Assembly: GCF_009730915.1 (NCBI RefSeq)
Contig: NC_052494.1
Coordinates: 372,001-436,000 of the forward strand
Source of the DNA: Dioscorea cayenensis subsp. rotundata
Taxonomy: Eukaryota > Streptophyta > Magnoliopsida > Dioscoreales > Dioscoreaceae
DNA length: 64,000 nucleotides
Direction of reading: 5' to 3'
In this document: one piece after another, positions 14,201 through 47,475 of the stretch
Layout: the number at the start of each line of letters is the position of its first letter
Position numbering within the stretch: position 1 is the stretch's first letter
Program-made: the position numbers and the translations under genes
Notes under the pieces: generated by a model
Told to the model about the DNA's origin: nothing
Seen by the model: only the letters and a program-made list of their open reading frames with translations
The model's database searches: none

Positions 14201-15102
14201 ATTTGTTGAGAGAGAGAGAGAGTGGGTGGAGGTGGAGCTCTCCTGGGAACAATCAATGCATGCATGCTCTGATTGTCCAGTGGAGTAATGGAGGTGCCCT
14301 CAATCCTCTCTTGCTTTTAATCCCTTCATCTCTTGGTTGTTGATGCTTTCTCTCGCTCTCGTTCTCTATATATCTCAAATTTTTTTTGGGGGTCCAAGAT
14401 CTGAGCTTTTAGATCTATCGATTGATGTATGTATGTATGTATTTGGTGTTCTTTTAATTCGTCTTTTTTTCTTTCATGTTTTTTGTTTTGATTTCTTTGG
14501 AGTTTGAGATTTTTATTATGGTTTTGTGTGTTTGTGTTTGAATCCAGGAAAGTGAGGGAGTTGTGGAGTGTTTGTGAATTGCGATATGGGAATGGTTGTG
14601 ATTCTTTAGGGTTTTTTCTTTTTTTTCTCTTTTTTGGGGGTTTTGATCCGTGTTGTAAAGCAAAAGGTTGGGTTTTGAGGTTGGTTTAGAGATTCTAGGG
14701 CTTTTCTTGCTGGCATTTCTTTTGGGAATTTTGATAAACAGAGAGGAGGGAAGGCCATTTGTTAGGGTTAGGGTTTGAAGAGGAGAAGAGAGCGCCATAA
14801 GAGTTCAAAAGAGTGTTTTGCTAACTTCTAGGGTTTTGATTTCATTCTGGTCTCCTTGTTTTCCTTTGGAATTTTTGCAGGCAAATTGGCCATTGGTGTC
14901 AGTGTTTCTTGGGTTAGGGTTAGGGTTTGACTAATTTTTCTCGGAGAATAGAAGAGAAGAGAGCGCCATAAGGGTTCAAAAATTGTTTGTGAATATCTAG
15001 GGTTTTGATTTCATTTCTGGTTCTCTTCTCTCTCTTTGGAATTTTTGCAAACAGAGTGTTGGCGGTGTTTCTGGTGTTGTTGTTAGGGTTAGGGTTTCAT
15101 TC
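14201..15102 (+). promoter_or_regulatory. Promoter-proximal region and 5' leader with telo-boxes and a GAGA tract
   Basis: A GAGAGAGA tract lies at about 14208-14222. T/G-rich leader sequence follows, and TTAGGGTTAGGGTTTG (tandem telo-box, reverse orientation) occurs at about 14763-14778, 14913-14928 and 15080-15095. A strong polypyrimidine-TTTTTGCAG acceptor at 14880 suggests a leader intron ending there. The segment 14725-14880 is repeated at 14881-15053 (see the repeat entry). Telo-boxes and GA repeats are typical of constitutively expressed plant genes; the transcription start cannot be placed. Confidence 0.5.
14725..15053. repeat. Two-copy tandem duplication in the 5' leader
   Basis: Two units of about 150-170 bp share, in order: TTAGGGTTAGGGTTTGA, AGAAGAGAGCGCCATAAG, GTTCAAAA, TCTAGGGTTTTGATTTCATT and CTTTGGAATTTTTGCA. 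Each ends in a potential splice-acceptor-like TTTTTGCA. In the second copy this reads TTTTTGCAAAC, so only the first keeps an AG acceptor. Confidence 0.75.
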
Positions 15103-17916
15103 ATGCATCTATCGCTATGGAAGCCGATATCCCACTGCGCCGCCATGATCCTGGATAAGAAGCACCGTAAATCGGGGCTCAGTGAGGACGGGAAGAAGAA
15201 GCCCTCGGTTCTCCGGCAGCTTCAGGAGCACAAGCTCCGAGAAGCCCTAGAAGAGGCCTCCGAGGATGGCTCCCTCTTCAAGTCCCAAGAAGCTGATCCT
15301 GACTCCGACCCCGGCGCCAACGCCGACGGCGGTTCCATCGGCCGGTCCCGGTCCTTGGCCCGCCTCCATGCCCAGCGTGAGTTCCTCCGTGCCACTGCCC
15401 TTGCCGCTGACCGCACCTTCTCCTCCGCAGAGTCCATTCCTGAGCTTGCGGAGTCCTTCTCCAAGTTTCTCACCATGTACCCTAGGTACCAATCGTCAGA
15501 GCAGATTGACGCTTTGCGTTCCAATGAGTATGCTCACCTCTCTGAGTCCGGGGCCAAGGTATGCCTTGACTACTGTGGTTTTGGCCTCTTTTCATATCTT
15601 CAGAGCTTCCATTGTTGGGAGTCTTCGGCTTTTAGCCTTTCAGAGATCACTGCTAACCTTAGCAACCATGCTCTTTATGGCGGCCCTGAGAGAGGCACTG
15701 GTGAACATGATATCAAGCACAGGATAATGGACTACTTGAATATCCCTGAGAATGAATATGGTTTGGTGTTTACTGTTAGTAGAGGTTCTGCTTTTAAATT
15801 GCTTGCTGACTCGTATCCTTTCCATACAAACAAGAAGCTGTTGACAATGTTTGATCATGAGAGCCAGTCGGTGAATTGGATGGCTCAGAGCGCAAAGGAG
15901 AAGGGGGCAAAGATTCAGAGTGCTTGGTTTAAGTGGCCGACTTTGAGAATTTGCTCCACTGAGCTGAGGAAGCAGATATCTTCAAACAAGAAGAGGCGGA
16001 AGAAGGATTCGGCTGTTGGGCTTTTTGTGTTCCCGGTGCAGTCTAGAGTCAGCGGAGCCAAGTATTCATATCAGTGGATGGCATTGGCACAGCAGAATAA
16101 CTGGCATGTCTTGCTGGATGCAGGGTCTCTGGGACCGAAGGACATGGATTCGCTCGGGCTGTCACTCTTCAGGCCTGATTTCATTATAACATCGTTCTAC
16201 CGTGTGTTTGGTTCTGATCCTACTGGTTTTGGATGCCTTCTCATCAAGAAATCAGTTATGGCAAGCTTGCAAAACCAAAATGGGGGCACCGGATCAGGGA
16301 TGGTGAGGATTGTGCCAGTTTTTCCCCAATACTTGAGTGATTCTGTGGATGGTCTGGATGGATTAATTGGAATTGAAGATGAGGAAATTATTGAAACTGA
16401 AGATTCATTGATGCCTGATACGCATAGAGGGTCTCAGCTGCCTGCTTTCTCAGGCGCTTTTACATCAGCACAGGTCAGGGATGTTTTTGATACTGAGATG
16501 GATCAGGATAACAGCTCTGACAGGGATGGTGCGAGCACCATTTTTGAGGAGACAGAGAGTATTTCTGTTGGAGAGGTGATGAAGAGCCCGGTTTTCAGTG
16601 AGGATGAGTCATCGGACAATTCATTCTGGATTGACTTGGGTCAGAGTCCCATTGGATCTGACAATTCAGGGCAGTTGAAGAGGGGGAAGTTAGGCTCTCC
16701 GATACCACCATCATGGTTTTCTGGAAAAAAGAATCAGAAAAAACTGTCACCTAAAGTTTCATCCAAGATTGCAACGAGCCCAATATATGATGATCACACT
16801 ATTTCTTTTGATGCAGCACTAAAATCTGTCTCCCAAGATCTAGAGAGGGTCAAGGGAATACCTGAAGAAGAAACAGCTGAATGTAGTGGGGATGTGGATC
16901 TTCATCAGAATAGGGAAATTGAAGAAGAGCCTGAATTTCAAGTCACAAATGCATGCAATGTGAAGTTTTCTGCTGCCAATGGAACAAGAACTGGAAGTTC
17001 TGTTTATATGCCACAGCGTAGGCGAGAGAACGGGTCAACATCTGAGATATGTGAAGAAGGCTTCCAGGAGATGAAAGAAAGTGCAATAAGAAGGGAGACT
17101 GAAGGTGACTTTAGGCTTTTGGGAAGGAGAGAAGGAAATAACAATAGGTATGCTGGGTCCAGATTCTTTGGTGTGGAAGAAAATGAGCGTGTTGTAAGCA
17201 TGGGTCGTCGGGTCTCCTTCAGCATGGAGGACAACAAACATGGTGAAAGGCAGTGTCAAAATTCAGATGCCGGTGAGCCGTCTGCACAGACTCTTGGTGA
17301 TGATGATAGTGATGGTGATGATGATGAGGATGCTCAAGAGTGGAGCAGGAGAGAGCCTGAAATAGTTTGCAGGCATCTTGATCATGTGAACATGCTGGGC
17401 CTCAACAAAACCACCTTGAGGCAACGTTATCTGATAAATTGGCTTGTGACCTCTTTATTGCAATTGCGCCTACCAGATTCGGATGGAGGAGTTGGATCTC
17501 ATCTCGTCCACATTTATGGTCCAAAGATCAAATACGAGAGGGGTGCAGCTGTGGCTTTCAATGTGAAGTCTAGTTCTGGGGCATTTTTGAAACCTGATGT
17601 TGTTCTGAAGCTTGCTGAGAAAAATGGAATTTCTTTGGGTATTGGTTTCCTAAGTCACATAAAAGTCCTTGAAAGCCAAAAACATCTCCATGGGGCGGTG
17701 GATTTGGGTGATGCTTCATTGTGTAAGCCTGTATCAAATGGGCGCCATGACAGTAAGAACACCATGATCAGAGTGGAAGTTGTTACTGCCTCTCTTGGCT
17801 TCCTTACAAATTTTGAAGATGTTTATAGGATGTGGGCTTTTGTGGCAAAGTTTCTAGATCCAACATTTGCTGAAGATGATAGGCCATCCATTGTTGTGGA
17901 GGCTTCAGAAACATGA
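15103..17916 (+). CDS. MOCOS-like PLP-fold protein lacking the catalytic Lys and Cys
   Basis: A single intronless ORF of 937 aa. The N-terminal ~110 residues are basic and charged ([15 protein letters not shown]). A class-V aminotransferase / molybdenum-cofactor-sulfurase-like fold spans roughly residues 130-440, with YLDY-like [34 protein letters not shown] and [16 protein letters not shown] long acidic, Ser-rich insert follows (about 440-760, including [14 protein letters not shown]). The C-terminal subdomain starts at [12 protein letters not shown]. In MOCOS/ABA3 a lysine in an SFYK motif binds PLP; here it reads SFYRVFG. The Cys-bearing motif of the C-terminal subdomain is replaced by [11 protein letters not shown]. 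No MOSC domain is present. This fits the plant family usually annotated as PLP-dependent transferase superfamily / molybdenum cofactor sulfurase-like. The start ATG gives the conserved [14 protein letters not shown] opening. Function unknown; sulfur-transfer activity is unlikely. Confidence 0.9.
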
Positions 17917-24260: not shown

Positions 24261-24599
24261 TTGTGACTTCAGTTAAAATATTTATATATATATATATATA
24301 TATTAACAATAAAGTAGTTTTTTATAAATATATTTTGTCATCTATTATTAGTAGGTGAAGAATTAGGCCTTGTGCTGAAATTTTGTTGTAGTTAATTTTT
24401 ATAATTCACTTAAAAAGTATATAATTTACATTATTTCTTAATAATCATGTGAATTCAGTCGCCACATTTATGAATTTCACATGCATTTATTGCTACTAAT
24501 AAAACTTTAAATCGAATGTAAATCTTAAATTCAATCCAAATTAAGCAAGAAATTATAGCATAGAAGAACCAAAAACAAATATAATAAAATATAGGGACT

Positions 24600-24704
24600 G
24601 AAGTGAAAATGTGCTATGAGGTTTCTATATATATATATAACGCTCAAAGGTGGCGTCTCTGGACATTCCTCGTTGAAATCTCAGTGCTTTTCCGGAGCCG
24701 GAGA
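24600..24704 (+). promoter_or_regulatory. Promoter and leader shared with the second NUP58-like copy
   Basis: AAAATATAGGGACTGAAGTGAAAA here parallels AAATTATAGGGACTAAAGTGAAAA at about 31873-31896. GACATTCCTCGTTGAAATCTC parallels GGCATTCCTCGTGGAAATCTC at about 31943-31963. Similarity therefore extends at least 100 bp upstream of both start codons, so the duplication included the core promoter. Confidence 0.6.
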
Positions 24705-26184
24705 ATGGAGCATGAGCCACCGCGACCGTTCCTTGGTCTCTTCCGGTCCGACGGCTCGCCGGCGACGCAGGAGACCAGGCTCTGAGAGCTGGACACGGCG
24801 TCGAGGATTTTCCTGAGGTCTTTGCCGACGTTCCAGTGAGTTTTTCGCTTCAGTCTTTGATGGATCGCAATGTTCTCGCTTCTCGTTTGATTTCTCGATT
24901 TTTAGGGTTTCCTTCTTGTTCGATCTAAGTCTGTCTGGTTTTCCTAGTGTTTTGTTGTTCGCTTTCTGATTTCCAGCTGGGGGTTCGTGATTATTGTTTA
25001 GATCGAAGGATCTGAAAGGGAGAGGTTTTTCCCCATTTGTTTTCCCGATTATTCTCTTGAAAACCCTAGGAATCGATTTTCATCCTTGCTGAAGAATAAT
25101 CTCGAAATAACGAAAAAATCTAATTTTTTTCTTTAATATCATTGTTTCTTTCTCAGGATCTCCTCCGATTTAGAAATTTCATTTCTGAAGTTGTTGACAT
25201 GAAAACATTGCAATACAGGAGGTTTCATGGTTTCTTTTTCGTGTGCCAAGTGGCTGCAATGCTTGGGCGCTTTGTGTCAGATACTTGCACTTACTTCCAG
25301 GTTTGTCCCAAATTTAGAGTTTTGTAACCTTTCCTTTGATTCCTAAGACTAGAATTTGCAACTCTGTTTTAATGTTAACCTAATTGAAATACTTATTATG
25401 TTCTTCACTTTCCAGCAATACGGAGGACTCCTCAATGCCCTGCATTTCTCAGCAGAGCCAAGAAATACTGTGGAGCGTTTGTGGGACATTTTGCTTTGGG
25501 CAATCCAGTGGGAGGTTTGGCATCTATTGCACATCACACCCAGAACCAATCCTAATGAAGGCCGTGATAATCCTATTCCTCCTCGGCCAGTTTTAGCCAC
25601 TCACACCACAATTATGATTTTACAAGAACACTTGAACCAGGCTTGGAGATGGATTGAAGAGCTTGAACGTCTTGTGGTCTCGCACAGTCACGGGGTATTA
25701 GATGAATTAATTGCTCTATTATGTGAATGCACACATATGATGCTATGCAGTGTTTTCTTTGATTTCTTCCACTCTCTGTTCAATTCATGTGCTCTTCTTA
25801 TTGTTTGAAGCTCGAGTTCTTTAATGTTCATATGGAGAATATGAGGATCTCTTATCTTGGTGCTGCTTATGGCCATGTTCCTAATGTGCCTACTGCAATC
25901 CCTCTGTTTGGTCCTCCATTGTGCCCTGAAAATTCTCACTCAGACCTCGAGCCTCCCTCAGGTGAGCCATAATTTTTTAACTTAATTGATAAGGTTTTTT
26001 ATGTATACATAATAGTTTTTATTATGTCACACTCATTGGCATTGGTACTTACTCAAAAAGGAAAACTTTATATTTGTTCTTTATAGTTACATTTATTACT
26101 TGATCTTTTGAAACACTGATACACTTTGTTTGTGTTCTTTAGCTGATTATGGTGATGAAGCAGCTTCGGACTTCTTCATTGCTG
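24705..26184 (+). pseudogene. NUP58-like duplicate A with an in-frame stop in exon 1
   Basis: Five exons are supported by parallel structure with copy B: 24705-24835, 25219-25300, 25416-25694, 25811-25961 and 26143-26184, with phases 2,0,0,1 as in B. Exon 1 encodes MEHEPPRPFLGLFRSDGSPA and then hits TGA at 24783-24785, where B has an open codon; the frame stays open after the stop (ELDTASRIFLRSLPTFQ). Exon 3 ends in a helical segment (LQEHLNQAWRWIEELERLV) like the NUP58 C-terminal helix. Exon 4 gives LEFFNVHMENMRISYLGAA, parallel to NUP58 VEKLHQHLNEMNDYRATGA. A last exon is uncertain: joining 26184 to the acceptor at 26894 adds two residues and a stop at 26900-26902. The later exons show no decay, so readthrough, a downstream start or alternative splicing remains possible. 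Confidence 0.6.
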
Positions 26185-26431
26185 GTAATGTCTTCTTGAA
26201 TAACTTTTGCTTCTTAATTTTGTTTTTTTTTTTTATGGATGAAAAGTTGCTTTCTTGCTTATTGTTCTTGCTGTTGCATAGATTTATAGTTTCTCACTTG
26301 TATAAATATTTGCACAAGTCGAAATGGTTGTGTCAACGATAAATGCAGAAATATCTTGTCAATTATGTGAAACCACATGGAGAGCTTATGTCCATGCACA
26401 AGGAACGTATACATTCCTCTACTGCTATGTG

Positions 26432-26600
26432 TCGAAAAGCTCTTTGTGATATAAGTTATACATTTAGTATTACTGAAAGACACTATTCTAATTCATATGT
26501 TTAGCTTTTGTCAATAAGTTTCGAAAAGCTCTTTCTAATATAAGTTATATATTTAGTTTTACTGAATGATGCTATTCTAATTCATTTGTTTAGCTTTTGC
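26432..26600. repeat. 85-bp tandem duplication
   Basis: CGAAAAGCTCTTTGTGATATAAGTTATACATTTAG..TTAGCTTTTG at 26432-26515 is repeated as CGAAAAGCTCTTTCTAATATAAGTTATATATTTAG..TTAGCTTTTG at 26520-26600. It lies in the 3' region or last intron of NUP58-like copy A. Confidence 0.7.
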
Positions 26601-26965
26601 TTTCTGGAAATCCTATTCAAACACGTCTTTATGCAAGTAAATATAGTTTTCATCGTCGGAAAATTAAGTTTTTCTAGTGATTTGAAAAAGCAATGAATTT
26701 GCAAGCTATTATATTCATACTTCTAAATCTCAAATATGTAAACATTCTGCAATTTTTAGCTTAGTTATATCTCAAAGATCAATAAACATTACATTCATCT
26801 TGTTTTCTTTGTATGTCAAATCTTCATTTGAGAATTTTGAATTGAAATCTCATGAATACTTTATGTTAACCTTTAACTTTCTAAATATATGCAGATGTTT
26901 GATCAAATATCAATGTTCAGGGAGAGTAATATTTAGGTGTTGTAGTATCCTGCATGTGACTGCAG

Positions 26966-26969
<4 letters not shown>

Positions 26970-27006
<37 letters not shown>
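26970..27006. repeat. (TA)n microsatellite
   Basis: About 18 dinucleotide units. The open frame that crosses it reads IYIYIY and is not a gene. Confidence 0.9.
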
Positions 27007-27009
<3 letters not shown>

Positions 27010-27679
27010 ATGAAAAACTGTGAAACAAAGTGCAAAGTGGATATCATGTTGAAATATGTTTATTTTTCCAATGAGCAATATCCATTATCTTATAAGTTAA
27101 GTTTAACAGTAGATTGGCTTGTGGATTCAATTGAATTCTATTATCAACAGTTCAAAATTAAAGAAATCATTCACAATCTGATCAGAGAAAATGATTCAAG
27201 TACTGAAGTCATGAATAGTAAAGATGCAACACTTGAACTTAAGCCCTAAACAGTCAAGATATATTCTCTGCTTTTTTCACAGTAAGCATATTGATCTTTG
27301 AAATTTTTAATTTTCATATGGACTATCACTTATGTCTTTTGAGGAATACTTGTTTATTGTTGTATGAATGGCACATGTTATTAGGTATTTACCTTTTTAG
27401 TTTTAATTTGTGTTGTTCTGTTTTTCCTTTTTTTTTTTAATTTTATATATTTTCACTTCAGGTTGCTTTGTTGTTTTGTTTTCTATTAGTTTTTCTGGTT
27501 TTTTTATTAAATTAATGATTTATCTATTTTATTAAAAAAATTGTAAAATATATGTCGTTCTTCTTAATGCATGAGCTACTACTAATTATAAACATTAGGT
27601 TACATCATTAACATCCATTTATTGTCTGTCAAAAATCAAGTTAAATGGAAACATTTGAAAGTCGGAACAGAACTCTCCA

Positions 27680-27729
<50 letters not shown>

Positions 27730-29057
27730 CAAATGTTTATATAAAGCCTCAAAAAATTATTTTATTTGTTGATAGTATATGATACTCTAGATGATCCACT
27801 CTAAATATTGTAGTTAAAATATTAAAAAAAGATACAATAAATCTAAAAAAAAAGAGAAACTAAATAATAGGAGAGAAAACTAAATTTATTTATTTTTTAT
27901 CATATCTTAAATGTTTCTATCTTGATTCAAAAAATTTAATTTTTTTTTTTATAAAAATTAAGATAAAATTAAGATTAGATAAAATAAGCTATTTATTAAC
28001 TTTAAAAATATATTATTTTAAAAATAATTTTATTATATATTGAAAAAATATTATCCATAATTTTATATAAAGGATTCGAATAATTTTTAATATATATCGG
28101 GAATTAAAAATCTCACGTATTATTTTAGGGAACATCCCAACATCATTAAATTAAGGATGGCTTATTTATTATAATCAATTAAAATAAATACTTTAAAATT
28201 TTAATTTACAACATTATTTAACAATTAGTTAAAAAGCTCATAATTAAAGTTTTTACTCGCTGAATTTGGTCAGCTACAGGTTTTTAATTTCTCACTCAAA
28301 GATTATGGATTTGGTTCAATTCTGTATCAAATGGTCCAAATACATCAATTCTTTGAAAAAACCAATTTAGATCATTCATTATATAAAATTCATAGTTCTC
28401 ATCTCATGGGATTAAAATTATTTATTATGGTTGATTTTAAAATACTAAGTAAAGTTTTACATGATGGTAGAATTATAAATATTTATAAAATCATAATCTA
28501 TATGTTTAGATACATGTCTATAAATTCATATATTCTTTTATATATTTAAAAAAGATTATTTATAATCTTTATGGATTAAAAGTTTTTTATAATTTTTTTA
28601 AAATAATTATGAATAAAATATAAATTTAAAAAAGGAATTGAATTTGTTACTAAATTTAAAAATAGATTTCAATTTCATTTCTAAAATTAAAAAATAATTA
28701 TTTCCGTTTCTAATTACATTCTTTTGAAACCACAGTAAGTTAAATAATTTTATATAATTTTAACATTATAAATGTTTATGAAATCATATTTTATATATTA
28801 GACTTGTAATTATGCATAAAGCTACTTTCACTGTTTCCTAAACTTTTATATTAAATATCTATAAATTTTTTAAAAAAATTGTAAACTTTTAAAATAACTT
28901 TAAATTAAAATAAATTTCCTTAAAATATAACACAATGCAATTTCTAATTATTAAATATGAAAATAGTTAAAAGAGAACTAGTATAATTTTAAATATTTGT
29001 AAAATATTATATAATGATAATATTTAATATTAATTTATTGATAGTATTATAAAAGTA
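27007..29057. other. AT-rich spacer between the NUP58-like copies
   Basis: No gene is recognised. It contains an (AAT)n array at about 27680-27727 and long A/T blocks. Confidence 0.35.
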
Positions 29058-29373
29058 GAATACCCTATTTAGTCCCTTTAATATAGTCAATCTATCTATT
29101 TGATTCCTCTAATATGATCTGTCCTTAAAAGATCCATGTATTTTAATTTTTAGAAAATATAAGTCCTCTAATATGATTTGTCCTTACATGATCCATGTAT
29201 TTTAATTTTTAGAAAATATAAATTCATTTATTTAATATAATTTGTCCTAAAAAGTTCTATGTGGACTTATATTTTTTAAAAATTAAAATACAGGGACCTC
29301 TTAAGAACAAATTATATTAGAGAACCAAAAAGACAAATTGACTATATATTAGAGAGACTAAATAGTGTATTCT
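29058..29373. mobile_element. Foldback MITE, about 315 bp
   Basis: The left arm begins GAATACCCTATTTAGTCCCT. The reverse complement of the right end begins AGAATACACTATTTAGTCTC. The arms stay complementary through the shared words AATATA, TCTAATAT, TTGTCCTTA/TTGTTCTTA and TGTATTTTAATTTTTA. The left arm also has an internal direct duplication (TCTAATATGATTTGTCCTTA.. twice, near 29117 and 29164). No target-site duplication was convincing. Confidence 0.65.
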
Positions 29374-29499
29374 ATTAATTATTAACATTATCTTCCATTA
29401 ATAGGCAACAATTAATATTGGACGAGGTTTAGAGAAGCCAAAGTTTCTAATGAAAAGCAATAACAAATGGGAACTAGAGGAAACTAAGAAAAATATATA

Positions 29500-29610
29500 T
29501 AATAATTGAAGAAGAAGATCAACAAGAAGATGAATTTGAAGATGATGATGATGACGATGAAGAAGAAGAAGAAGGGAAAATGGAAGCCAGTTTCGCTGAA
29601 GTAAGATATG
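29500..29610 (+). other. Acidic-coding GAAGAT-rich stretch with a splice-donor-like end
   Basis: A purine-rich run of GAA, GAT and CAA codons reads as a polyacidic peptide (EEEDQQEDEFEDDDDDDEEE) and ends GCTGAA followed by GTAAGA, a good donor. Upstream stops close the frame within a few codons, and no acceptor or partner exon is identified. It is probably simple-sequence expansion, or possibly an exon relic. Confidence 0.25.
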
Positions 29611-29763
29611 GACAAAAGCATATATATGATAGCCAACTTGATATTAGAAGGTTATGCTAAAGATATAAGATAAGAAAGAATTTTAAAAACTTGGTATTCA
29701 CACGGATATATGAAGCAGATGAACCGTTGAAAATTGAGATGAAGGGTAGGTCTAGCTACATGA

Positions 29764-29796
<33 letters not shown>

Positions 29797-30072
29797 GAGT
29801 TAATTAAATTAAATTGGATTATGAAACTTTAGTGTTTTTTTTTGTCAACTTTATTTATTTATTTTTGTTTAGTGATTCTTAATTATAATAAAATTTTTGG
29901 CCATATGTACTTTGGATTGTGTTTGGGAAAATAACATTGATAATTTAATCTACAAGTTTTAAGTGGTTTTTAATTTAAATATTTTTCACAATAAATTAAT
30001 TATTTTAATAATAATAATAATAATTATTATTATTATTATTATCTTACCAATTTATGCATATACAATTTATTT

Positions 30073-30244
30073 ATATACCATAGTCACTTGGTTCAAGTGG
30101 TTAGTGGCATCAAAATAAGCCTTTCATGTGGCGTGCGGAGTGACGAGAGTCATGTGGCGTACGAAGTGGTGAGGGTTTGAATTTTTCTTGAAAAAAATTA
30201 ATTCACAGGGGCGCTTGTCGTTTTTTTCAAAAGAAAAAAAAAAT
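30073..30244 (+). mobile_element. tRNA-derived SINE with target-site duplication
   Basis: The A-box GGTTCAAGTGGTTAG (30092-30106) and B-box-like GGGTTTGAATTT (about 30173-30184) lie in the expected order, and an A-rich tail ends at 30244. Direct repeats CAATTTATTT flank it at 30063-30072 and 30245-30254. Two GTGGCGTGCG/GTGGCGTACG words inside suggest a small internal duplication. Confidence 0.72.
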
Positions 30245-30254
30245 CAATTTATTT

Positions 30255-31182
30255 TATTGAAAGAACAAATTTTTTAAATATATATACAACATATCTATAA
30301 ATACACACAAACAATATAAAATGTATATTTATAAACATCATATATACTAATATACCCTTCTAACTAACATATATAATTAAAATATATGATTACATGCTAA
30401 ATGACTTAGAAAAAAGTAGTATGATATAATTTGCATATATACTACAAAAACTTTATTTAATTGGTTTTACTCATTGTTTCATCTAAATAAAAATTAATAT
30501 TCATATGGACATATTATAAATTTCTATTTATTTTTAGTATTATAAAAAATGAATTTATATAACTTATAATGTATTTGAATGATGTATATAGAGTAGACGG
30601 CCAAACATATAAATGCAAATGAATTACATTTCAATAGTTACATTTAACATGTGATTTTATTAAGGAACATTGTGCACATGCAATGTGGTGAATTTTCAAA
30701 GGTATACTAAGGGAAAAAAAAAAATTTATTTATTACAGTAACAAAGTTTAAGAACCAACTATTTCAAAGTCACAAATTATATATATAAAAAAAATAATTG
30801 GCATTATAATTAAGCATGTTGTTGGTTATTGAACACCTACTCATGGGAAAGTTTGCCAAGGATCCCTACACTCTTGTATTTTTTAACCTGATTTATTTAA
30901 AAGGGTAAATTAAGCAAAGAATATACATAAAAAATATGAAGTCTCTCTATTTATAATTATGTATTCAGTCCAATTTCAACAACAACTAATATGCAATATA
31001 ATACAACACATTAATAAGTTCTACTTATTCCAAATTATTTGTCGACTGAACTAATGTAAAGACTAAATTTTCAAATTTAATTTTACCCTCTTATTTAAAT
31101 GTACTATTTTTCACTAGTCACTTTACAAACATAAAGAAAATGAGCTAAATTTTATAAAATTTTTAACTCTAACTACTCTATT
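30255..31182. other. AT-rich intergenic DNA
   Basis: No gene or structured element is recognised. Confidence 0.35.
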
Positions 31183-31819
31183 TGTTTCATTTCAATTATC
31201 ACATATATAATCTGTACATAAATATTAAAATTATTATAAAAGTTTTTAAAATTAAAAAATATTTTATGATGAGACACTTTTATCTGGAGTAAAATTATTT
31301 ATTCCCAATAATTCACATTTTTTTTTAAATAAGAAATTGGATAAAAGTAAAAATTATTTTTTATAAAAATTGTTTATATCATCCCTTTAACTTTATCACT
31401 TGATCAAAAAATCCTTAAATTATTTCGTATCCTCAAAAAACCTTTTTTTTTTCCGATACCCTCTGATAACTTACTTTTCAATAGTTTTATCAAAAATACC
31501 CTTCAGCGATTTTAAACAGAAACACAAAATACTAAACAACAAACTAAGATATTAAATATCAAAAACAAATATTAAACAGAAACATTACATATTTAATGAA
31601 AATTTATGATATTTTTCAAACAAGGTAAAATTAGATTTTTAAATAAAATAAACTGATGCAAAGATCGAGAAATAAGTAAATTGAAAAAGAAAGGACAATA
31701 AGAAAAATTGAAATGTCAGAGGGATTACAATAAAAATTTGAAAAATTACAAAGATTAATAAATAATTTTCCCTTATGTTTTTTCCACATGTGATAGTTAA
31801 TATAAACCGGAGGGAGTAT
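31183..31819. mobile_element. Stowaway-like (Tc1/mariner) MITE, diverged
   Basis: The left end reads TACTCTATTTGTTTCATTTC. The right end, reverse-complemented, reads TACTCCCTCCGGTTTATATT, close to the Stowaway terminus CTCCCTCCGTTTC. TATCACAT follows both ends. At about 640 bp it is longer than usual and the middle is AT-rich, so it may contain a nested insertion. Confidence 0.5.
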
Positions 31820-31985
31820 CTTGTAATAACTGTAAATGGTATTGAATTTAGAAATTAAAATAAAATATGATAAAATTATAGGGACTAAAGTGAAAAAAAG
31901 AGTTTTCATTCCCATAAATAGCACCTCAAAGTGAGAGTGTTCGGGCATTCCTCGTGGAAATCTCGAGACTTTGGTGTCGCCGGAG

Positions 31986-33379
31986 ATGGAGACGGAGCAA
32001 CGGGGAACGGCGTATTTAGGGCTTTTTAGTGCCGATGGATCGCCGGCGACGCCTGATACAAAGCTCGAGGACCTCCATCATTCGTCGAAGACTATGCTGA
32101 GTAATCTTCCCGAGTATAGGTTCGGTTTTTCTCTTGATCAGTACTCTTTGATGGTTGACGATGTTCTAGTTTTCCTTTCTGGTTTTTATTGTTTGATTTC
32201 TTGATTTTAGGGTTTTTTTGTTGCTCTAGCTTGCTTGTTTTGGTTTTGTCCAATTCTATGTTAATTAAAAATGTCTTTTTTTTTTCTTGATAATTTCTCT
32301 TGGTCTGTTCGATTTCATAGCGCTTGTAAACCCTAGAAATCGATTTTCATCTTTGATGAAGAATAATGAATATTGAATACTAGAGAATGAACTATCAAAA
32401 GATTTTGTTTTTCTTTTCTTTCTGAATAAATGAGCTCAATTTTGTGGATGTTTAAATGTTGCACATTGGATTTTACTAACATGAAATTGTTATACAATTC
32501 AGGGCATTGTATATCTCCTTTGAATTATGCAGAAGAATTGAGATTCTTGAGCAGTTTGTGCGCAAGGCTTGTGATTATTTCAAGGTTTCTCAAAAAAAGT
32601 TTGGATTTTTATCCTTTTCTTTAGTTGAAAATAGAGTTTAGAACTCTGTTTGAATGTTAATATGAGGCATTATTACTTGTTCTACTCTTTTCAGAGATAT
32701 GGCGGACTTCTTAGTGCTCTGCAAATTTCTGAAGATCCAAATGATGCTGTGCAGAAGCTGTGGGAAAATCTCCTTTGGGCCATCCACACTGAAGTTGGGT
32801 ATTTGATGAGGATTAAAACCAGGGCAGGCATTTGTGATAACAATTATTCTATCCCAAACAGACCAGTTATAGGACCTCAACCAACACCATCAATGATGAA
32901 AGAACATTTGAAGGAAGTTTGCAAATGGATTAAAGATGTAGAACAGCTTGTTATGTCCAACACTATTTGGGTAATTATAACTTGCTCATCACCAATTTCT
33001 TTGATTTAATTTGTTGTCCTCTGTTAATTTCTAAAGTTCAATTTTGTTTTTGTTCTTACTCTTTTCTTTCCTTGAAGATCATGTATTTTAGTAGTCGTAT
33101 GGAGTCTCTGAGGACTGCTTATTATGGTGCTTCCCATGGTTCTTCAAGTCATAACTCTCCTGCTCTCTATGACCCTGCAATGTGCTCAGGGAGCATCTCC
33201 ATCCCTGAGCCTCCCTCATGTGAGCAACAACTCTAATCTTTATTTATAATATTTTTCCTTTTCTGTGTAGTTGGTTTTACAGTTTCATTTGCTTGTTAAT
33301 CATTAATTTTAAGATGGGAACTCTTAACTCTTTGTTTGTGTTATTGTTATTCTCAGTTACAGAACTAGAAGATGACTGA
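31986..33379 (+). CDS. NUP58-like duplicate B, short diverged nucleoporin-like protein
   Basis: Exons 31986-32119, 32533-32584, 32695-32970, 33078-33219 and 33357-33379 join without a stop into a 208-aa protein (phases 2,0,0,1). Exon 1 carries YLGLFSADGSPATPDTKLED, parallel to the NUP58 segment YLYKLDGSPAEYQTKFEK. Exon 2 ends in DYFK (NUP58 RYFNQ). Exon 3 ends in MMKEHLKEVCKWIKDVEQLV, parallel to the NUP58 helix ending QQIVELEQLV. The ~28 NUP58 residues after that helix are missing here. The protein has no FG repeats and no transmembrane segment. Exon 5 ends the protein early (FTELEDD). It is most likely a neofunctionalising or fading paralog of the reverse-strand NUP58 gene 2 kb downstream. 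Functional status is unknown. Confidence 0.65.
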
Positions 33380-35289
33380 GGCAATCTGAGACAGCTTTCT
33401 TCTCTCTGGTAATGTTTTCTTGAATAACTTTTGCTTTCTTTCTAATTACAGTTAAAAAGTTGGGAAAATAATGATTAAGTTCTGATTGTCTTGCATGTAT
33501 ATTTGCATACGTTGGCGTGGTTTGTGTTCATAATGCATGCAGAAATATCCAAATCTTTGTAGCATGCACGTCGCCATTTTGTTCTTGTAACCCATGCATG
33601 AGTGACACGTATTCAATTAACGCTATCTTTGACTTTTGTAAACGCTCTTTCTGAAAGTCGTTTTGTAAAATTATTCCAGGACTTTTGGTCAAGACCTTAT
33701 AGCAAAAGCTATATTTGATTTTACCTAACGTTCTTATTCATTTTTTTTACTTTTAATCCGTTAACACATCTTTGTGTAATCAAATATATAGCTTTTGGTG
33801 TTGGAAAATTCTTTTCCACTGATTTTGACAAAACAGTGAAACTGCATGCTTCATATTCCCTGTCTGAGTGACATATATTCAAAACTTGGTTGAGGACAAT
33901 ATTTATTCCTTTACTGTGAGCATTCACTGGGTTAATTGATGCTTGAGTCCACACAAGACTATTTCACAGTAGATGAGAGATCTTATTTTATCGTAGATGA
34001 GGGATCGATTCCGTAAAGTGAAGGCGTATGTCTGAGAGCTATGAACATGAACTATGAATAATTCTTTTGCTTACATGTGTGTTGGTCCTACAAGCCGCAG
34101 TCGAGGCATGTGCACACTCCTGTCTTTTTAGCGGCTAGCTGCTCATCTTGACCATATATATATATATATATATATTCTTTTGCTCCGTTGTATGAATATG
34201 TATAAGATGTAAATTAACTTTCTGCATCTTTACTCACGTCTCAGTCTCAAAGATTTACTGTGTATTGAGATTATTTACTTTGGATAACTAATCTTGACTG
34301 GACTGAGATCTCATTAATATGTTGAATTTTTCATTCAAAATACATGCAGATATATATATGTGTAAGCGAGATGGTCCAGGATACAAGTTCAGTTGTCAGA
34401 GAAGAAGAAGAAGAAGAAGAAGGAAAGCATTTCCAAGTGAAATTTGCTGGGCATTCTCTTTACCCTTTTTTTTCATGTTGTTGTCGCTCTTTTATGTTTC
34501 CTGATCGAACTGTAACAGTAGTAATTTGCAGGTTGTACCTTTTTTTGTATAAACTGTTTGATTTTCACCCTTATGGGTAATGTAACTGTTTTTGTTTTAA
34601 TGTAAAAAAACTCTCTTAGATTTAATTATAAAAATATTTTTATAATCTCATTTTAAAAAATACGTTTTAATTCATAAAATAAAAATAAATATTAAATATT
34701 TTAAAATTTAATAAATAATTTATTAAATTAATTATTTTTTATCTAAATTAATTTTATAAAAAATATTAAGTAATTAATACTAATAATAGATAATTTAAGT
34801 AATCTCACTATTCACTATTCCACTTACATAGTGATTAAATCTCTCAACTTACATAAAAACAATTATTAAATAATAATATTAAATATAACATTTTTAATTA
34901 TAACAAATTAAACAATAATAATGCAATTTAAAATGCAATATTTATTATATTTGGTGGTAACCAAACAGCCCCTAGATTTGACATGGCTTCAACCAAATCT
35001 TATTCAATTCAGAAACCAGTAAATCTGAAAATTTCCAAAGCTTCTGAAAAATAAAATTGACAAATTTCCATACAAATTTATCTGTGATCTCAGTCAAATG
35101 TTTTACTACAGAGTGTATGCTTAGTCAAATGTTTTACTGCTGAGTGATTTCTCTAAGATACAAATCAATGAATTTTTATTATCACTGGGCTTCAAAAAAG
35201 TTCTAGTGATGGATTACATGTATATTTACATAGACCAATTCAAGTGTTTTCAGATGTAGTTGTCAGTATATGAGTCCAAGAACTAGAGT

Positions 35290-35334
<45 letters not shown>

Positions 35335-35453
35335 CTACAGCTTAGAGTGTATGATTATACCCAAGTATTTGCAGCTTTTCCAAAAAATGTGAAGTTAGTT
35401 AAGAGTTCTTGAAGCAGCTTGTCAGTAATCATCCATGGTGAACTGGTTCATTT
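33380..35453. other. 3' region of copy B and convergent spacer to NUP58
   Basis: 33400-33430 (GTAATGTTTTCTTGAATAACTTTTGCTTTCT) still matches the intron after exon 5 of copy A, so the 3' UTR of B is probably spliced there. A (TA)n tract lies at 34155-34174. A (GAA)n run lies at about 34403-34424, and an isolated CCAAACAGCCCCTA element end sits near 34964-34977. 35080-35453 is the likely 3' UTR of NUP58 and contains an (AC)n tract at 35286-35332. Confidence 0.4.
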
Positions 35454-37649
35454 TCATCGCCTCAAGACGGCACCAGTAGCACGGTAGTCATTCATTTCAT
35501 TCAAATGCTGATGAAGTTTCTCCACCTAAAATCAATCAGCCAGATGTGTATCATTCCACAAAACATAAGCATACAATTTGTAATATATCGGTACAAAATA
35601 TTCTTTATAATAGTAATAGGTATAGTATTATAACAACAACAAAATTGCAGTGCAAAATCAAGGAAAACTTATCACTAATACAATGGAGATATCTGCAGTT
35701 TGTGTGTGGTTGTGTAAATTACCTTGGCAGCAACATGGATGAAGAAATCATGCACATTTGACATAATGCGTGGTATTGATTGTAACGATGACACGCTTGA
35801 GCTTGAAAATTCACTGGTTGGCTGAACAAGTTGTTCCAGTTCTACAATCTGCTGACTAATTTTAGTGAGATATTGATCAAACCTGGCCAGTGTTTTCAGC
35901 ATGAATGAAGACGGTCTCGCAATCATGAAGGGGAAACCAGAAGCTGCGGGGAAAGGCATGGATGGCTGATCGGCAGCACTATAAATTCCGGCCAACCCAG
36001 CCATCTGGGTTGAAGTATGTACACTTGAAGCTCTGATGGAACTGGGCAAATGGAATTTATTTCTAAGCTCTGTATACGAACGGACAGCATCATCTGTGGC
36101 CCGCAGAATTTTCATAGAAACATCCCTGAGTTCTTCCGCAAGAATATGTTCCTTTTGGTGAGCAATACACAGCCCTCTGATTTGCTGACAAACAGAAACA
36201 AAACTTGATCACATTGTAAACCATAAAGATGCAACAGTAATCATCTGAGTTCCTGGCAAACAAACAGGACATCTATTTAACATTTGAAACCACTAAAATG
36301 CAATATATATTGCAACATTTATTGGAGGTTCAGATGCATGTAATAGGAGGAAATTTTCTATACCAAAGACCATTTTAAATTTATTTTTGATGCAAATATA
36401 AATGGGGATGTATTCTAAAACAGAAAGGAAAAAAAAGAGTGTTGTTAGAATGATAGAACAGGAATAGGGCTGAAATATTGTGGCCTAAAAAGATGACATT
36501 CATGCACATATACCATGAGAAACTCGTGGTTCAGAAAAAATTCCCAAACAAAACATGCATTCATATACAAATATAAAGCACTCAACTTTAAGAATGTGCA
36601 AGATAAAACATTGGTAACAATATCAAGAGAACCTCATGCACTCAAAGCATTCCGAACAATTAAAAACCAAAAGAATTCAATGATAAGGTAAGGTTATTCT
36701 TATGCCAAACCTGGTTGAAGTAACGAGCATCATCCTCAAAGCAACGGCCTGAACCCAATGAATCATAAAGACAGCTGAATTCATCTAAGCTTCGACTTTC
36801 ATCCTTGTATTCCCTAATTCGTTTCCTGAGTTGCATTTTCAATCAGTGTTCATCTGAACATATATGATATTCACTGAAAATAAATGTCAGCACTTTCATA
36901 CAACTTTCTAATATTCACATATTTATTGAATGAATACCCACAACACAAGACACTAAAAAGAAAAGAAAAGTAAAAAGGAGATAGATAGTTTCATAGAATA
37001 ATCTTAAAAAGAGAACCCCATGAATTTTTCTCCATAAAAAGAACACATTTTTAATGCAACAAATCAATGCATGCCCAATTTTAGGCTAACAATACCATGA
37101 ATTTGAGTTCGCAAAACAGAAGAACAAGAAGGCATTCAAAAATCTCATTTTTTTTTTCTTTTCAATTCATCTGCTTTCCTTCAATTCAACACAAACCCTA
37201 GCAAGAAAGATTTCAAGAACCAAAAGAAACATTTATAGAACCAAATTCTCAGCAAACCCTAGCCAAAAAGAAAATGATTCAAAAATAAAAAAGAAACAAT
37301 CAATAAGGAAAAGCAAACCCTACTGGATCTCAAGCACCAGCTGCTGCGATATCGGATGGAGCTTCTCGAACTTTGTTTGATATTCCGCCGGAGATCCGTC
37401 CAACTTATAGAGATATTTCGGCTCGATCACCACCTGCCGCTGCGGCCGCTGCTTATTCTCCTTCTGCTGCTTCTTATCTGAGGTCCTAGAGCTCTCCTCC
37501 ATTGGCACTGAGGTCCCAGAGCTCTCCTCCATTGGCACATCGCCTCCATGAGCCCCCCGATTCTCCGGCGGCGCAGCGCCGGAGCCATGGCCCGACGTCG
37601 TCGGAGAAGAAGCAAAAGTAACCCTGCGTTTTCTACGAGCTTGTTGCAT
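35454..37649 (-). CDS. NUP58: Nuclear pore complex protein NUP58-like
   Basis: Four exons on the minus strand, 37649-37324, 36825-36711, 36184-35723 and 35525-35454, join in frame into 324 aa. NUP58 forms the central-channel NUP62-NUP54-NUP58 coiled-coil complex. Seen here: a basic N-terminus (MQQARRKRRVTF) and a duplicated ten-residue unit (VPMEESSGTS then VPMEESSRTS). The conserved segment EPKYLYKLDGSPAEYQTKFE is followed by helical coiled-coil stretches (KRIREYKDESRSLDEF; QYLTKISQQIVELEQLV) and a C-terminal VEKLHQHLNEMNDYR. There are no FG dipeptide repeats, unlike animal NUP58, so an additional FG region is either absent or not in this model. Intron 1 is 498 bp; the first donor is GT in ATCCA/GTAGGG. 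The start is the first in-frame ATG. It converges on NUP58-like copy B. Confidence 0.8.
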
Positions 37650-37843: not shown

Positions 37844-38131
37844 GGTTTAATTGCTGTGATGTCAGTATAATTGTGTACTTTCTGTCTTTTTAGTCCTTCT
37901 AATATTTTGAGATACAATTAAATTTTTATATTTAGTTGAGTGGGTCGTTCTAGTCTACGGTAATATTTTTAGATACAATCAAGTCCTTGCAATTTACACT
38001 TGCCCATTTACACTGCAGACTAGAATGATCCAATTCAACTAAATATGAGGATTTAAGTATACCTAAAAATATTGTAAGGACTAAAAAGACAGAAAATATA
38101 TAATTACAGGGACATGTACAACAATTAAATC
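37844..38131. mobile_element. Mutator-type foldback MITE with 9-bp target-site duplication
   Basis: The perfect direct repeat CATAAGCTA lies at 37835-37843 and 38132-38140. Between them two long arms are complementary: the left contains TTTCTGTCTTTTTAGTCCTT and the reverse complement of the right contains the same 20 bases. Further matches are AATATTTT, ATATTTAGTTGA and TTCTAGTCT. A 9-bp duplication with long inverted repeats is the Mutator-superfamily signature. Confidence 0.82.
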
Positions 38132-44900: not shown

Positions 44901-47475
44901 TGATCAGGCTTAGTTTTCATATCCACTGGCAAAGGAATCATGCTCTTTTATGGATTGAACTTCTCAAAAAATATTTTGAAAATCTCACTTACAAGTCCAT
45001 CTTAGAATACGATATTGGTCGTGAAAATTGTCTGGAAGGATCCCCATTCTTGCCTGGTATCACTGATGGAGAAAATTTCGATAATTTATGCACCAGACAT
45101 TTGCAGAGGCAGGCTATTTTTCTTCTTTTCAAATGTTTCTTCACTGTAGCCTGCATCAATGAAGAAAGTGCTGAGAAATGTTCGTGTTCAATCAAAGCTC
45201 TTTCCATCACTTGCAAGCTGCAAGTCTGTTGTGACCAGTGCTGCCTTCTGGGTTTATCAGAGCTTTCTGAGTGGCTTCAAAAGTGTGTGTTCTTGGGAAA
45301 ATTCAAGGACCATGATAATTACTCAACATCATGCTGCACCTTTGCATTATCCTTTTTACAACTGTTTATTGAGGAAGTATGGTCTTTTCCGCATTTGTGC
45401 TAAAACATTATTTCTTTACCTATCAACTATATATTTAACTTTTTGTTGTTAAGATTATGTCTCATTTTTATTCTTCTCTGAAACAATTCATGCAATCTTT
45501 TATCTGCCATTACTGAACCTGTTTGCTTATGGACTTGTAATTAGGTTTTGATGGCTACTTGTTTGATATGTTTTATTAGTTTTAGGCTTTCATTTTCTTC
45601 ATTCCTGCTGGATGATATGAGGGTGGTAGTAGCTTTTTCAATATTTATTTAATGTAGATATATTAATTGCTTTGCTCCCTATAATTTTTTTTATGTTTTG
45701 CTTTCAGCAGTTAAGATTCTTTTCTTAAAGTTTCTGCTTAATTTCAAATTTGTAGAGATGTACATATGACTGTTGAGATTGACTGTTCTTAGAAAGATTT
45801 ATGCCTGATCCCTCGTTAGCTTGTCAAGAAACAAGATTGATCAGAAATTTAGAGTTCACAACAAGAATTATTGTTTCACTTAGGAGATAATTACTGTTTT
45901 GATCTCTGACAGTGATCAATTTATTTAAAATGGTCACAATGTTCAAATTGTTGCAGGCTCAAAACTATTCTTATCTACATAGTCATTGTAACTCTTTTGT
46001 TCTACTTCAAATGTTTTGCCATCTTCAGTCTTTGGATTGTCATAAGAGTTCCATGAAAGATTTCCATTATATCTTCATATTATCGCTGATGTTCTATTTT
46101 ATCGATCGCTTTGAAATGACAGGATGATATGCTATTTGAAATGCTACTGCAGCTATCGGATGCTAAGTTCATTTCCTTGCAAAAGTGAGATACCAGTTTT
46201 TATAACCTCAATTTTAATTTTACTACAACTTAGGTCTTATGGTTTTTTTTCGAAAAGCTGGCAGTCAGAACAATGTAGAACATAGATCATTTGAGGAGAA
46301 GAATGGAAACATCATCTTCCACATTTCCAGGATCTTCGACCCCATTGGCATTTTTCATATATTTCTTCAATTGGTTAGTAAGCTTATTTCTTTTATTTTA
46401 ATTATTATAGACAATGTCTCTGGCATTTTAGATGATGGATGCATATTTTGGTCATCGTATTATGTATTTATGTTGGTAATAACCACTCGAGAAGAGTTGA
46501 GCCGAATCTGTTTAGCTACTGGTCTATTCATGCACTTCCCCTTTTCCTTAGATTGGTAGTAGTTAGTAAATTTTGCCGATTTAACTTATCTATTCAGTGC
46601 TTTTTACATACTGTTCTTTTTGTTTCTGCAGTTACACTATGACCACTTGATCATCATCGATTATCTTATTTCAAAAGATATAGGGGTCCATTGCTTGCAA
46701 TATCTACTAAGGTATTACTCCGACTTAAGAAAGAATACTTTATTAGTTAGCATATCAATGAGTTTATCATTGTAACAATGAACTGCACATGGAATGAATT
46801 GTTAATTACTAGCACAAGCTGCTCTTTAGAATCTCATTCAGAAATAACTGTTATAACATGCTTGATAATGAAACGATGAAACAACCGACACTTTATTATG
46901 TAACAACCTATGTGAACTCTATGACAATTGAATCTATTGTCATTGCTTTGACATCTTAAATAAGTTTTACTTCAGTTCTGTAAATCTGACACATATTTCA
47001 TTGTTGTTAAATTTTTTGAATCTGGTGTCCTAATTAAGGTATTTTTCAGGAGCTTGCACAAGATTTGCAAATCATGGCATCACTTTGCGAAATACTCGAT
47101 ATGTGAAAGCGAGATCGATCAGCAATACAAAAAGAGGAAAATATTCATGGACAATTCATCTAATATGATCGACGGACAAAATGCAAGAAAGCAAGAAAAC
47201 AGAGGTTCACATGAGAAAAATAGATCACATACTTTTAAAAATGCCAAAGAATGTTTGCTTTCTGTGAAAAGATCAGTGGAGGAACTTCATCAGAAAAACT
47301 TGTTCCCTTACAACCCAATGCCTCTTATCAAAAGGTAACAACATAATCCAATACTCAAATTTGGTTCTTATGAAATTATTTCATCAATGTCTCAAGTGCC
47401 CTAAGTTATATATGTGAAAATTGCTTTCTATGCAGTTTCACAATATTTCAGAAGCTATGTGAAGAGGAACAATAA
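41796..47475 (+). CDS. Lines homolog (LINS1-like) protein
   Basis: Twelve exons join into about 701 aa: 41796-41861, 41992-42060, 42170-42223, 43097-43198, 43811-43897, 43982-44650, 44894-45376, 46123-46184, 46265-46373, 46632-46711, 47050-47334 and 47436-47475. The C-terminal part carries the Lines signature: RIFDPIGIFHIFLQL, then LHYDHLIIIDYLISKDIGVH and LQYLLRSLHKICKSW, followed by a basic, Ser-rich tail. The middle (exons 6-7) is helical and Leu/Cys-rich, ARM/HEAT-like. In Drosophila, lines acts in segment-polarity and Wnt signalling; the plant role is unknown. Exon 1 is the least certain: it ends at an unusual GTTAGC donor just before a (CT)n tract. The exon 9 acceptor (CTGGCAG at 46264) was chosen because the upstream AG at 46232 would put in a stop. 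Confidence 0.82.
41867..41951. repeat. (CT)n-(GAT)n compound microsatellite in LINS-like intron 1
   Basis: About 32 CT units (41867-41930) run directly into seven GAT units (41931-41951). On the coding side it lies between the exon 1 donor and the exon 2 acceptor, so length variation should not affect the protein if that intron is correct. Confidence 0.9.
42765..43040. mobile_element. Stowaway-like MITE in LINS-like intron 3
   Basis: The right end GAAACGGAAGGAGTA is the reverse complement of TACTCCTTCCGTTTC. The left end TAGCTATTTCCTTTTTATCTGTC and the reverse complement of the right end (..TTTCTTTTTATCAGTC) pair over ~20 bp. Size (~275 bp), AT-richness and terminal TA fit Stowaway elements. 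It sits within the 873-bp intron between exons 3 and 4. Confidence 0.6.

Follow-up and report, generated by a model that had tools for sequence, protein, structure and literature searches.

The canonical NUP58 gene lies outside a cluster of three diverged NUP58-like loci in Dioscorea cayenensis subsp. rotundata that probably stems from an ancient duplication

Which of three NUP58-like loci in one stretch of yam DNA, if any, is the canonical nucleoporin gene, and where did the others come from? The stretch, hereafter the window, comprises 64,000 nucleotides of Dioscorea cayenensis subsp. rotundata contig NC_052494.1 (C24:372001-436000; C24 is 1.0 Mb long) and carries two short forward-strand loci, copies A and B, beside a reverse-strand NUP58 homologue that we call NUP58w. 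An earlier note on this DNA had taken the reverse-strand gene for canonical NUP58 and copies A and B for its diverged relatives next to their parent. We instead favor, at a probability of roughly 0.76, an ancient duplication that left a canonical NUP58 on another contig, C15, and, on C24, NUP58w and copies A and B as relaxed, diverging loci depleted of phenylalanine-glycine (FG) motifs. Direct support comes from the homology of the loci, an FG-bearing gene elsewhere in the genome, equal synonymous divergence (dS) in two gene pairs, lost coding parts and a stop codon in copy A.

The genome search (584,211,761 bases in 2249 contigs) scores the best candidates only, and weaker copies may be missed. 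With Arabidopsis NUP58 as the query, the best match lies on C15 (55-70% identity, in four pieces) and the second is NUP58w, among 6 matches from 9 scored candidates at expectation values (E) up to 1. Exon 3 of the C15 gene, used as a query in turn, returned only the C15 gene and NUP58w (2 of 4 scored candidates matched). The C15 protein starts with MAFNFATP, has a Gln-rich start containing one LFG and carries three FG motifs in exon 4, making four in the modelled exons. Over 166 aligned columns it is identical to Arabidopsis NUP58 at 108/166 positions (65%), compared with 68/161 (42%) for NUP58w, 43/166 for copy A and 43/155 for copy B, and its branch in the tree measures 0.075 against 0.845 for NUP58w (0.097 against 0.836 with a second set of columns), a 9-11-fold difference. 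Judged by these comparisons, the C15 gene is the clear counterpart of Arabidopsis NUP58, and all three window loci are derived. The exons of the C15 gene and of NUP58w, the latter rebuilt from sequence like the models of A and B, are as follows.

2645-2943, 3674-3788, 5046-5510 and 6556-7087 (in L009, the C15 locus): exons of C15 NUP58, phases 2,0,0,1; the model stops before the last exon or exons
37324-37649, minus strand: NUP58w exon 1, low-complexity N-terminus and LYKLDGSPAEYQTKFEKLHP segment, phase 2 end; aligned with exon 1 of the C15 gene (L009)
36711-36825, minus strand: NUP58w exon 2, 115 nucleotides (nt) as in the C15 gene, phase 0 end; placed by splice contexts
35723-36184, minus strand: NUP58w exon 3, coiled coils, ELEQL helix and MSNVHDFFIHVAAK; 47% identical to C15 exon 3
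35454-35525, minus strand: NUP58w exon 4, VEKLHQHLNEM followed by an early stop; the FG-bearing C-terminus is absent

NUP58w encodes 324 amino acids (aa; 37649-35454, minus strand) and matches NUP58 chain 9sob_I at E=7.5e-40 among 177,635 distinct PDB sequences; 9SOB is an Arabidopsis pore model according to the data-availability text of PMC12626886. It retains the homologous coiled-coil region, including the MSNVHDFF(I/V)HVAAK helix, and shares 109 of 215 residues with C15 NUP58. No FG motif occurs in its 324 residues. The six frames of the window contain 13 stretches with two to four FG motifs, none of them on the minus strand near NUP58w, and inspection by eye of 2.1 kb downstream and of the last 250 codons upstream (from 1.9 kb) revealed no hidden FG exon. 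The canonical status given to this gene in the earlier note is thus not upheld, as it is a NUP58 homologue that has diverged and lacks FG motifs, with the FG-bearing NUP58 residing on C15; NUP58w is an FG-less diverged NUP58 paralog. Exon 1 of NUP58w also contains a 30-bp in-frame tandem duplication (37478-37538; VPMEESSGTS/VPMEESSRTS).

Copies A (24705-26183, plus strand) and B (31986-33379, plus strand) were modelled with five exons each.

24571-24782, plus strand: promoter-proximal sequence, 5' untranslated region (UTR) and exon 1 block common to A and B; aligns with 31857-32066 at 69% over 217 columns
24705-24835, plus strand: copy A exon 1, with an in-frame TGA at 24783-24785
25219-25300, plus strand: copy A exon 2, 82 nt, phase 0 end after TYFQ
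25416-25694, plus strand: copy A exon 3, YGGLL..., IPPRP and WIEELERLV; matched by Arabidopsis NUP58 in tblastn at E=3.6e-4
25811-25961, plus strand: copy A exon 4, MENMRISYLG and a Pro-rich tail with one LFG
26143-26183, plus strand: copy A exon 5, followed by a GT donor; the 3' end of model A is provisional
31986-32119, plus strand: copy B exon 1, start codon and DGSPA segment, phase 2 end
32533-32584, plus strand: copy B exon 2, shortened to 52 nt, phase 0 end after DYFK
32695-32970, plus strand: copy B exon 3, YGGLL..., IPNRP and WIKDVEQLV; about 28-30 residues shorter past the helix
33078-33219, plus strand: copy B exon 4, MESLRTAYYG (last coiled-coil residues) and, where the FG exon would be, a Pro-rich tail; phase 1 end
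33357-33379, plus strand: copy B exon 5, with the stop codon; 208 aa in total

The frame of copy B is open through all 208 codons, with no stop or frameshift across its five modelled exons, while that of copy A is disrupted by the TGA in exon 1. All eight modelled introns of the two copies have GT-AG borders, and the exon phases 2,0,0,1 ascribed to both in the earlier note were recovered. The two proteins align over 206 columns with 38% identity (pairwise E=7e-48), and FG motifs number zero in B and one, the LFG, in A. The resemblance extends into non-coding sequence, where the claim of common promoter-proximal and 3' intron sequence stood in part: the 5' flank, introns 1 and 2 and the 3' flank are far more similar than shuffled sequence, intron 4 is less so (2.7 standard deviations above shuffles), and intron 3 barely, being null in one test and marginal in another (p=0.045). 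A GT donor after exon 5 is also common to both copies (GGTAATGT; 26184 in A, the 33408 region in B); in B it lies behind the stop codon, which suggests a 3' UTR intron. Between A and B sits a long imperfect palindrome resembling a miniature inverted-repeat transposable element (29056-29374, 75% identical to its own reverse complement), a second one lies just upstream of NUP58w (37846-38129, 72%), and an 89-bp tandem duplication is found downstream of copy A (26432-26599).

Are A and B related to NUP58 at all? Single-sequence PDB searches place 9sob_I at the top for both A (E=0.029) and B (E=0.074), values that are insufficient alone, and Pfam returns no significant family for B, for A exon 3 or for the reverse gene; these results would be expected if the likeness were a product of chance or of a generic coiled coil. 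A two-sequence profile of A and B, in contrast, finds Arabidopsis NUP58 (9sob_I) as its best PDB match at E=1.2e-5, with the next match at 0.36, and the alignment is colinear over positions 13-165. The reversed profile yields one PDB match, at E=1.2, which is not NUP58, and no other nucleoporin appears among the matches of A, B or the profile. Aligned by hhalign to a profile of three NUP58 sequences, A and B score a probability of 96.4% (E=1.4e-9; 0.1% for the reversed control), with an alignment that reaches the last coiled-coil exon and is gapped where A and B have lost residues after the helix. The earlier note had named the want of such profile similarity as a possible refutation, and its shared features, namely DGSPA, the YF before intron 2, the EELE/VEQL helix and the last coiled-coil exon, fall in one colinear order in this alignment. 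When the window is searched with Arabidopsis NUP58, the exons of the reverse gene are followed by A exon 3 (3.6e-4), B exon 1 (0.046) and B exon 3 (0.08). Gene structure adds further agreement, as all four intron phases (2,0,0,1) are the same in A, B and C15 NUP58, and sequence-only alignments of A, B and NUP58 place intron 2 at a common residue; for intron 1 the agreement is within a few residues only and depends on the alignment. A chance or generic likeness, refuted at the level of the profile search and hhalign, is therefore hardly credible, and the homology of A and B to NUP58 is established.

What distinguishes A and B from NUP58 is chiefly what they have lost. Counted by eye, about 28 residues are missing after the EELE helix relative to Arabidopsis NUP58 and the reverse gene, as the earlier note had proposed, and about 30 relative to C15. 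Exon 2 is also shorter, with 82 nt in A (about 11 residues lost) and 52 nt in B (about 21 lost) versus 115 nt in the C15 and reverse genes, and so is the linker in exon 3. Their coiled-coil segments are consequently incomplete, with gaps in exon 2 and past the EELE helix. The FG exon, 532 nt in C15, has a counterpart of 151 nt in A and 142 nt in B, where the Pro-rich tail occupies its place and is followed by a phase-1 intron, as the FG exon is in C15; given this position and the single LFG retained in A, the tail need not be the gain that it had been taken for. Ordered regions of channel nucleoporins are described in PMC4513098 as segments of about 40-80 residues that pair with cognate segments. 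Because residues of exon 2 and past the EELE helix are lost, normal trimer assembly by A and B is unlikely, and the coiled-coil gaps would be expected to hinder assembly with NUP54 and NUP62. We also considered intronisation of the missing MSNVHDFF helix, since translation of A carried on from exon 3 into intron 3 without a change of frame yields ...SVFFDFFHSLF...; this candidate was rejected, as shuffled sequences do as well (p=0.36 for A, 0.90-0.91 for B).

From which NUP58 gene did A and B descend? In a five-sequence tree they occupy a common long stem, for which four submitted topologies reduce to three placements, two being identical when unrooted; approximately unbiased (AU) test p values range from 0.31 to 0.68, or from 0.33 to 0.84 with a second set of columns. 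For both copies the scores against NUP58w are lower than those against the Arabidopsis and C15 proteins, with identities that differ little. They also retain a phase-1 fourth intron, an IPxRP motif (VPSRP in C15) and, in A, the LFG, none of which is present in the modelled NUP58w. Because these features are kept, A and B probably derive from a full-length NUP58 rather than from the present NUP58w, a choice that the tree does not decide. That A and B are daughters of an adjacent, canonical reverse gene, as the earlier note's placement of them next to their parent implied, would account for their adjacency and for the shared phases 2,0,0, and a position beside NUP58w passes the AU test (p 0.31 and 0.36). 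The same account leaves unexplained the phase-1 intron, IPxRP and LFG that the neighbor lacks, its canonical part is refuted by the FG-bearing gene on C15, and the neighbor has no non-coding similarity to A or B in five stretches, apart from a marginal signal in intron 3 (p=0.015 for B, 0.07 for A). We consider such parentage improbable. B exon 3 as a genome query found only B and A (2 of 4 scored candidates matched, E up to 0.001), and neither this search nor that of 200 kb of C15 revealed an A/B copy on C15.

If the window and C15 both hold NUP58 genes, do they share anything else? A single-exon open reading frame (ORF) of 971 aa in the window (15001-17916, plus strand) has its nearest paralog at C15:21,527,316-21,529,964 (minus strand), about 34 kb from C15 NUP58. 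The two are 79% identical over their best stretch and identical at 625 of 877 aligned residues; further paralogs occur on C11 (57%), C10, C4 and C20. The ORF has no Pfam match at E 0.001; its product resembles a molybdenum-cofactor-sulfurase-like protein. By the Nei-Gojobori method (NG86), dS is 1.18 (1.01-1.43) for the 971-aa ORF pair and 1.26 (0.92-2.07) for the NUP58 pair. Because these values are equal within error, they suggest that both C24/C15 pairs arose in one ancient duplication of a segment. The two genome duplications on record for yam have median synonymous divergence (KS) values of 0.869 (delta) and 1.21 (tau), as given in PMC9010478; those values come from another method than our 1.18 and 1.26, which therefore cannot choose between delta and tau. 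The same paper gives a KS of 0.389 between D. alata and D. zingiberensis; provided that this figure is comparable with ours, the A-B dS of about 0.9 predicts that both copies are older than the genus.

An ancient duplication followed by relaxed evolution on C24 has to be weighed against several of our own results. In 200 kb of C15 only two window genes find a clear partner, and C24 and C15 carry them in different relative orders, which leaves a genome-wide event unproven. For the other window frames no partner turned up there at E up to 1e-4, bar four short scattered matches (24-57 aa), and a 252-aa frame at 47820-48575 (minus strand) has no C15 partner in the genome search. Values of dS near or above 1 are close to saturation. 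In the five-sequence tree none of the three distinct placements of A and B is rejected, and the grouping of NUP58w with C15 receives only 45-49% bootstrap support. The ratio of nonsynonymous divergence (dN) to dS, omega, is 0.31 (0.17-0.44) for NUP58w and C15 NUP58 over 215 codons, a pairwise figure that includes the slow C15 branch; because most of the amino-acid change lies on the NUP58w branch, the omega of NUP58w itself is probably nearer 0.57 (assuming an equal split of dS and tree-based amino-acid change). NUP58w is probably constrained, but weakly. Between A and B, dS is 0.89, dN 0.49 and omega 0.56 (bootstrap 0.38-0.80; 0.59 on another alignment), which is only modestly low, since 0, 1.5, 2.5 and 4.5% of 200 neutral runs fall as low at d of 0.5, 0.6, 0.7 and 0.9. 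Structure models of exon 3 alone are of low confidence by predicted local distance difference test (pLDDT): that of B (59.9) resolves only helices around the linker, that of NUP58w (48.1) displays an additional helix at its end, and at pLDDT 60 and 48 they speak neither for nor against.

Are A and B then dead? Plain decay, in which both are pseudogenes of a NUP58 duplicate, overlaps with the ancient-duplication account and is favored by the stop in A, the coiled-coil losses, the fast divergence and the unconstrained tail. Against it stand the model of B, which has all its splice sites and no stop or frameshift, and a joint omega below 1. In neutral simulations started from B, none of 1000 copies was stop-free at 0.44 changes per site; at 0.1 per site 7.7% of 1000 copies were stop-free, and a very recent death of B is thus compatible with its open frame. 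Most of the A-B divergence probably arose while the frame was kept. We put plain decay of both copies at slightly less than even odds.

The same results bear on the opposite possibility, that B, and once A too, is a working, neofunctionalised short NUP58-like protein, selected for a role away from the nuclear pore or at its periphery; this, too, overlaps with the reading that we prefer. With about 0.4 synonymous changes per site behind each copy (half the A-B dS), B has acquired no stops and A one, compared with neutral medians of 7 and 6 new stops, and the splice sites and 5' flank are conserved. Omega by exon, given here without intervals, is 0.42 in exon 1 (43 codons) and 0.38 in exon 3 (92 codons), but 1.39 in exon 4 (47 codons), which is unconstrained with dN above dS. 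Copy A is broken, and this was the one plant genome searched; viral and prokaryotic collections returned no NUP58 relatives, and as they contain no plants they are uninformative on this point. From such sequence-level signals a working B may be entertained tentatively, with somewhat less confidence than plain decay. Of the two fates offered in the earlier note, decaying duplicate or variant NUP62-complex subunit, decay fits A, given its stop. Copy B bears the mark of past weak constraint (omega 0.56); having lost parts of two coiled-coil segments and nearly every FG motif, it is not supported as a functioning subunit of the pore.

Elsewhere in the window, a frame at 1353-1994 matches the Pfam prolyl oligopeptidase N-terminal propeller (E=1.3e-13) and one at 46964-47335 the Pfam Lines C-terminus (E=5.2e-10), while scans for tRNAs and for Rfam families at gathering scores gave no match in the window. 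The 252-aa frame has its only other relative in the genome (E up to 1e-5) on C13, at 27% identity, and a tandem array at 49507-50186 comprises 2.9 copies of a 235-bp unit with 88% matches.

How might this arrangement have come about? An ancient segmental, perhaps whole-genome, duplication would have created the second NUP58 locus, after which the C15 copy would have stayed canonical, with FG repeats and slow evolution. The C24 copy, NUP58w, lost the parts that bear FG motifs and diverged at about 9-11 times the rate, yet its frame is still open and its coiled coils show some purifying constraint. Another gene derived from NUP58 was presumably duplicated into A and B, which lost parts of two coiled-coil segments and whose FG exon is reduced to a short Pro-rich tail. 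With the C15 gene doing the normal work, the C24 copies would be free to decay or change. NUP58w could still bind NUP54 and NUP62 through its coiled coil and so fill a place in the channel complex, or compete for one, while adding no FG repeats. Copy B would form no normal trimer and could at best be a small, weakly constrained helical protein, and A is a recent pseudogene.

A bolder proposal is that the C24 cluster constitutes a lineage-specific FG-less NUP58-like set, with NUP58w as an FG-free channel subunit and B selected for a new role. Such a set would imply that this plant has two types of central-channel complex, differing in FG density; on the sequences at hand we regard it as unlikely, if somewhat less so than the descent of A and B from NUP58w. 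Under the preferred history of duplication and relaxed divergence, the coexistence of a canonical gene with an intact FG-less copy (pairwise omega 0.31) would offer a natural experiment on whether the FG repeats of a channel nucleoporin are separable from its coiled-coil scaffold, and A and B display further steps in the loss of parts.

How does the cluster compare with known systems? Arabidopsis NUP58 is single-copy according to PMC3695937, and apple NUP58 went undetected by the authors of PMC7566457. In a literature search of titles and abstract openings we found no plant NUP58 paralog cluster, and one may exist. The closest likeness is to NUP58/TRANSCURVATA1 (At4g37130) of the NUP62 channel subcomplex, in the coiled-coil segments, the DGSPA-like start segment, the EELE helix and the ESMRTSY end; unlike that protein, NUP58w has neither FG motifs nor the C-terminus, and A and B additionally lack residues of exon 2 and past the EELE helix. 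Residues 238-313 of NUP58w also match the crystallised p58/p45 helical region of vertebrate Nup58/Nup45 (E=0.11, or 1.5e-4 as a profile with Arabidopsis), whereas the FG repeats of the vertebrate protein are absent from NUP58w and A and B do not match vertebrate Nup58 at any E up to 10. With the ordinary divergence of plant segmental or genome duplicates, the locus shares two paralogous pairs of equal dS and a NUP58 pair of which one member is conserved and the other accelerated; it differs in the extra pair A/B and in the stepwise loss of domains from a nucleoporin gene. Copies A and B and NUP58w are divergent duplicates of a nucleoporin gene rather than a new system.

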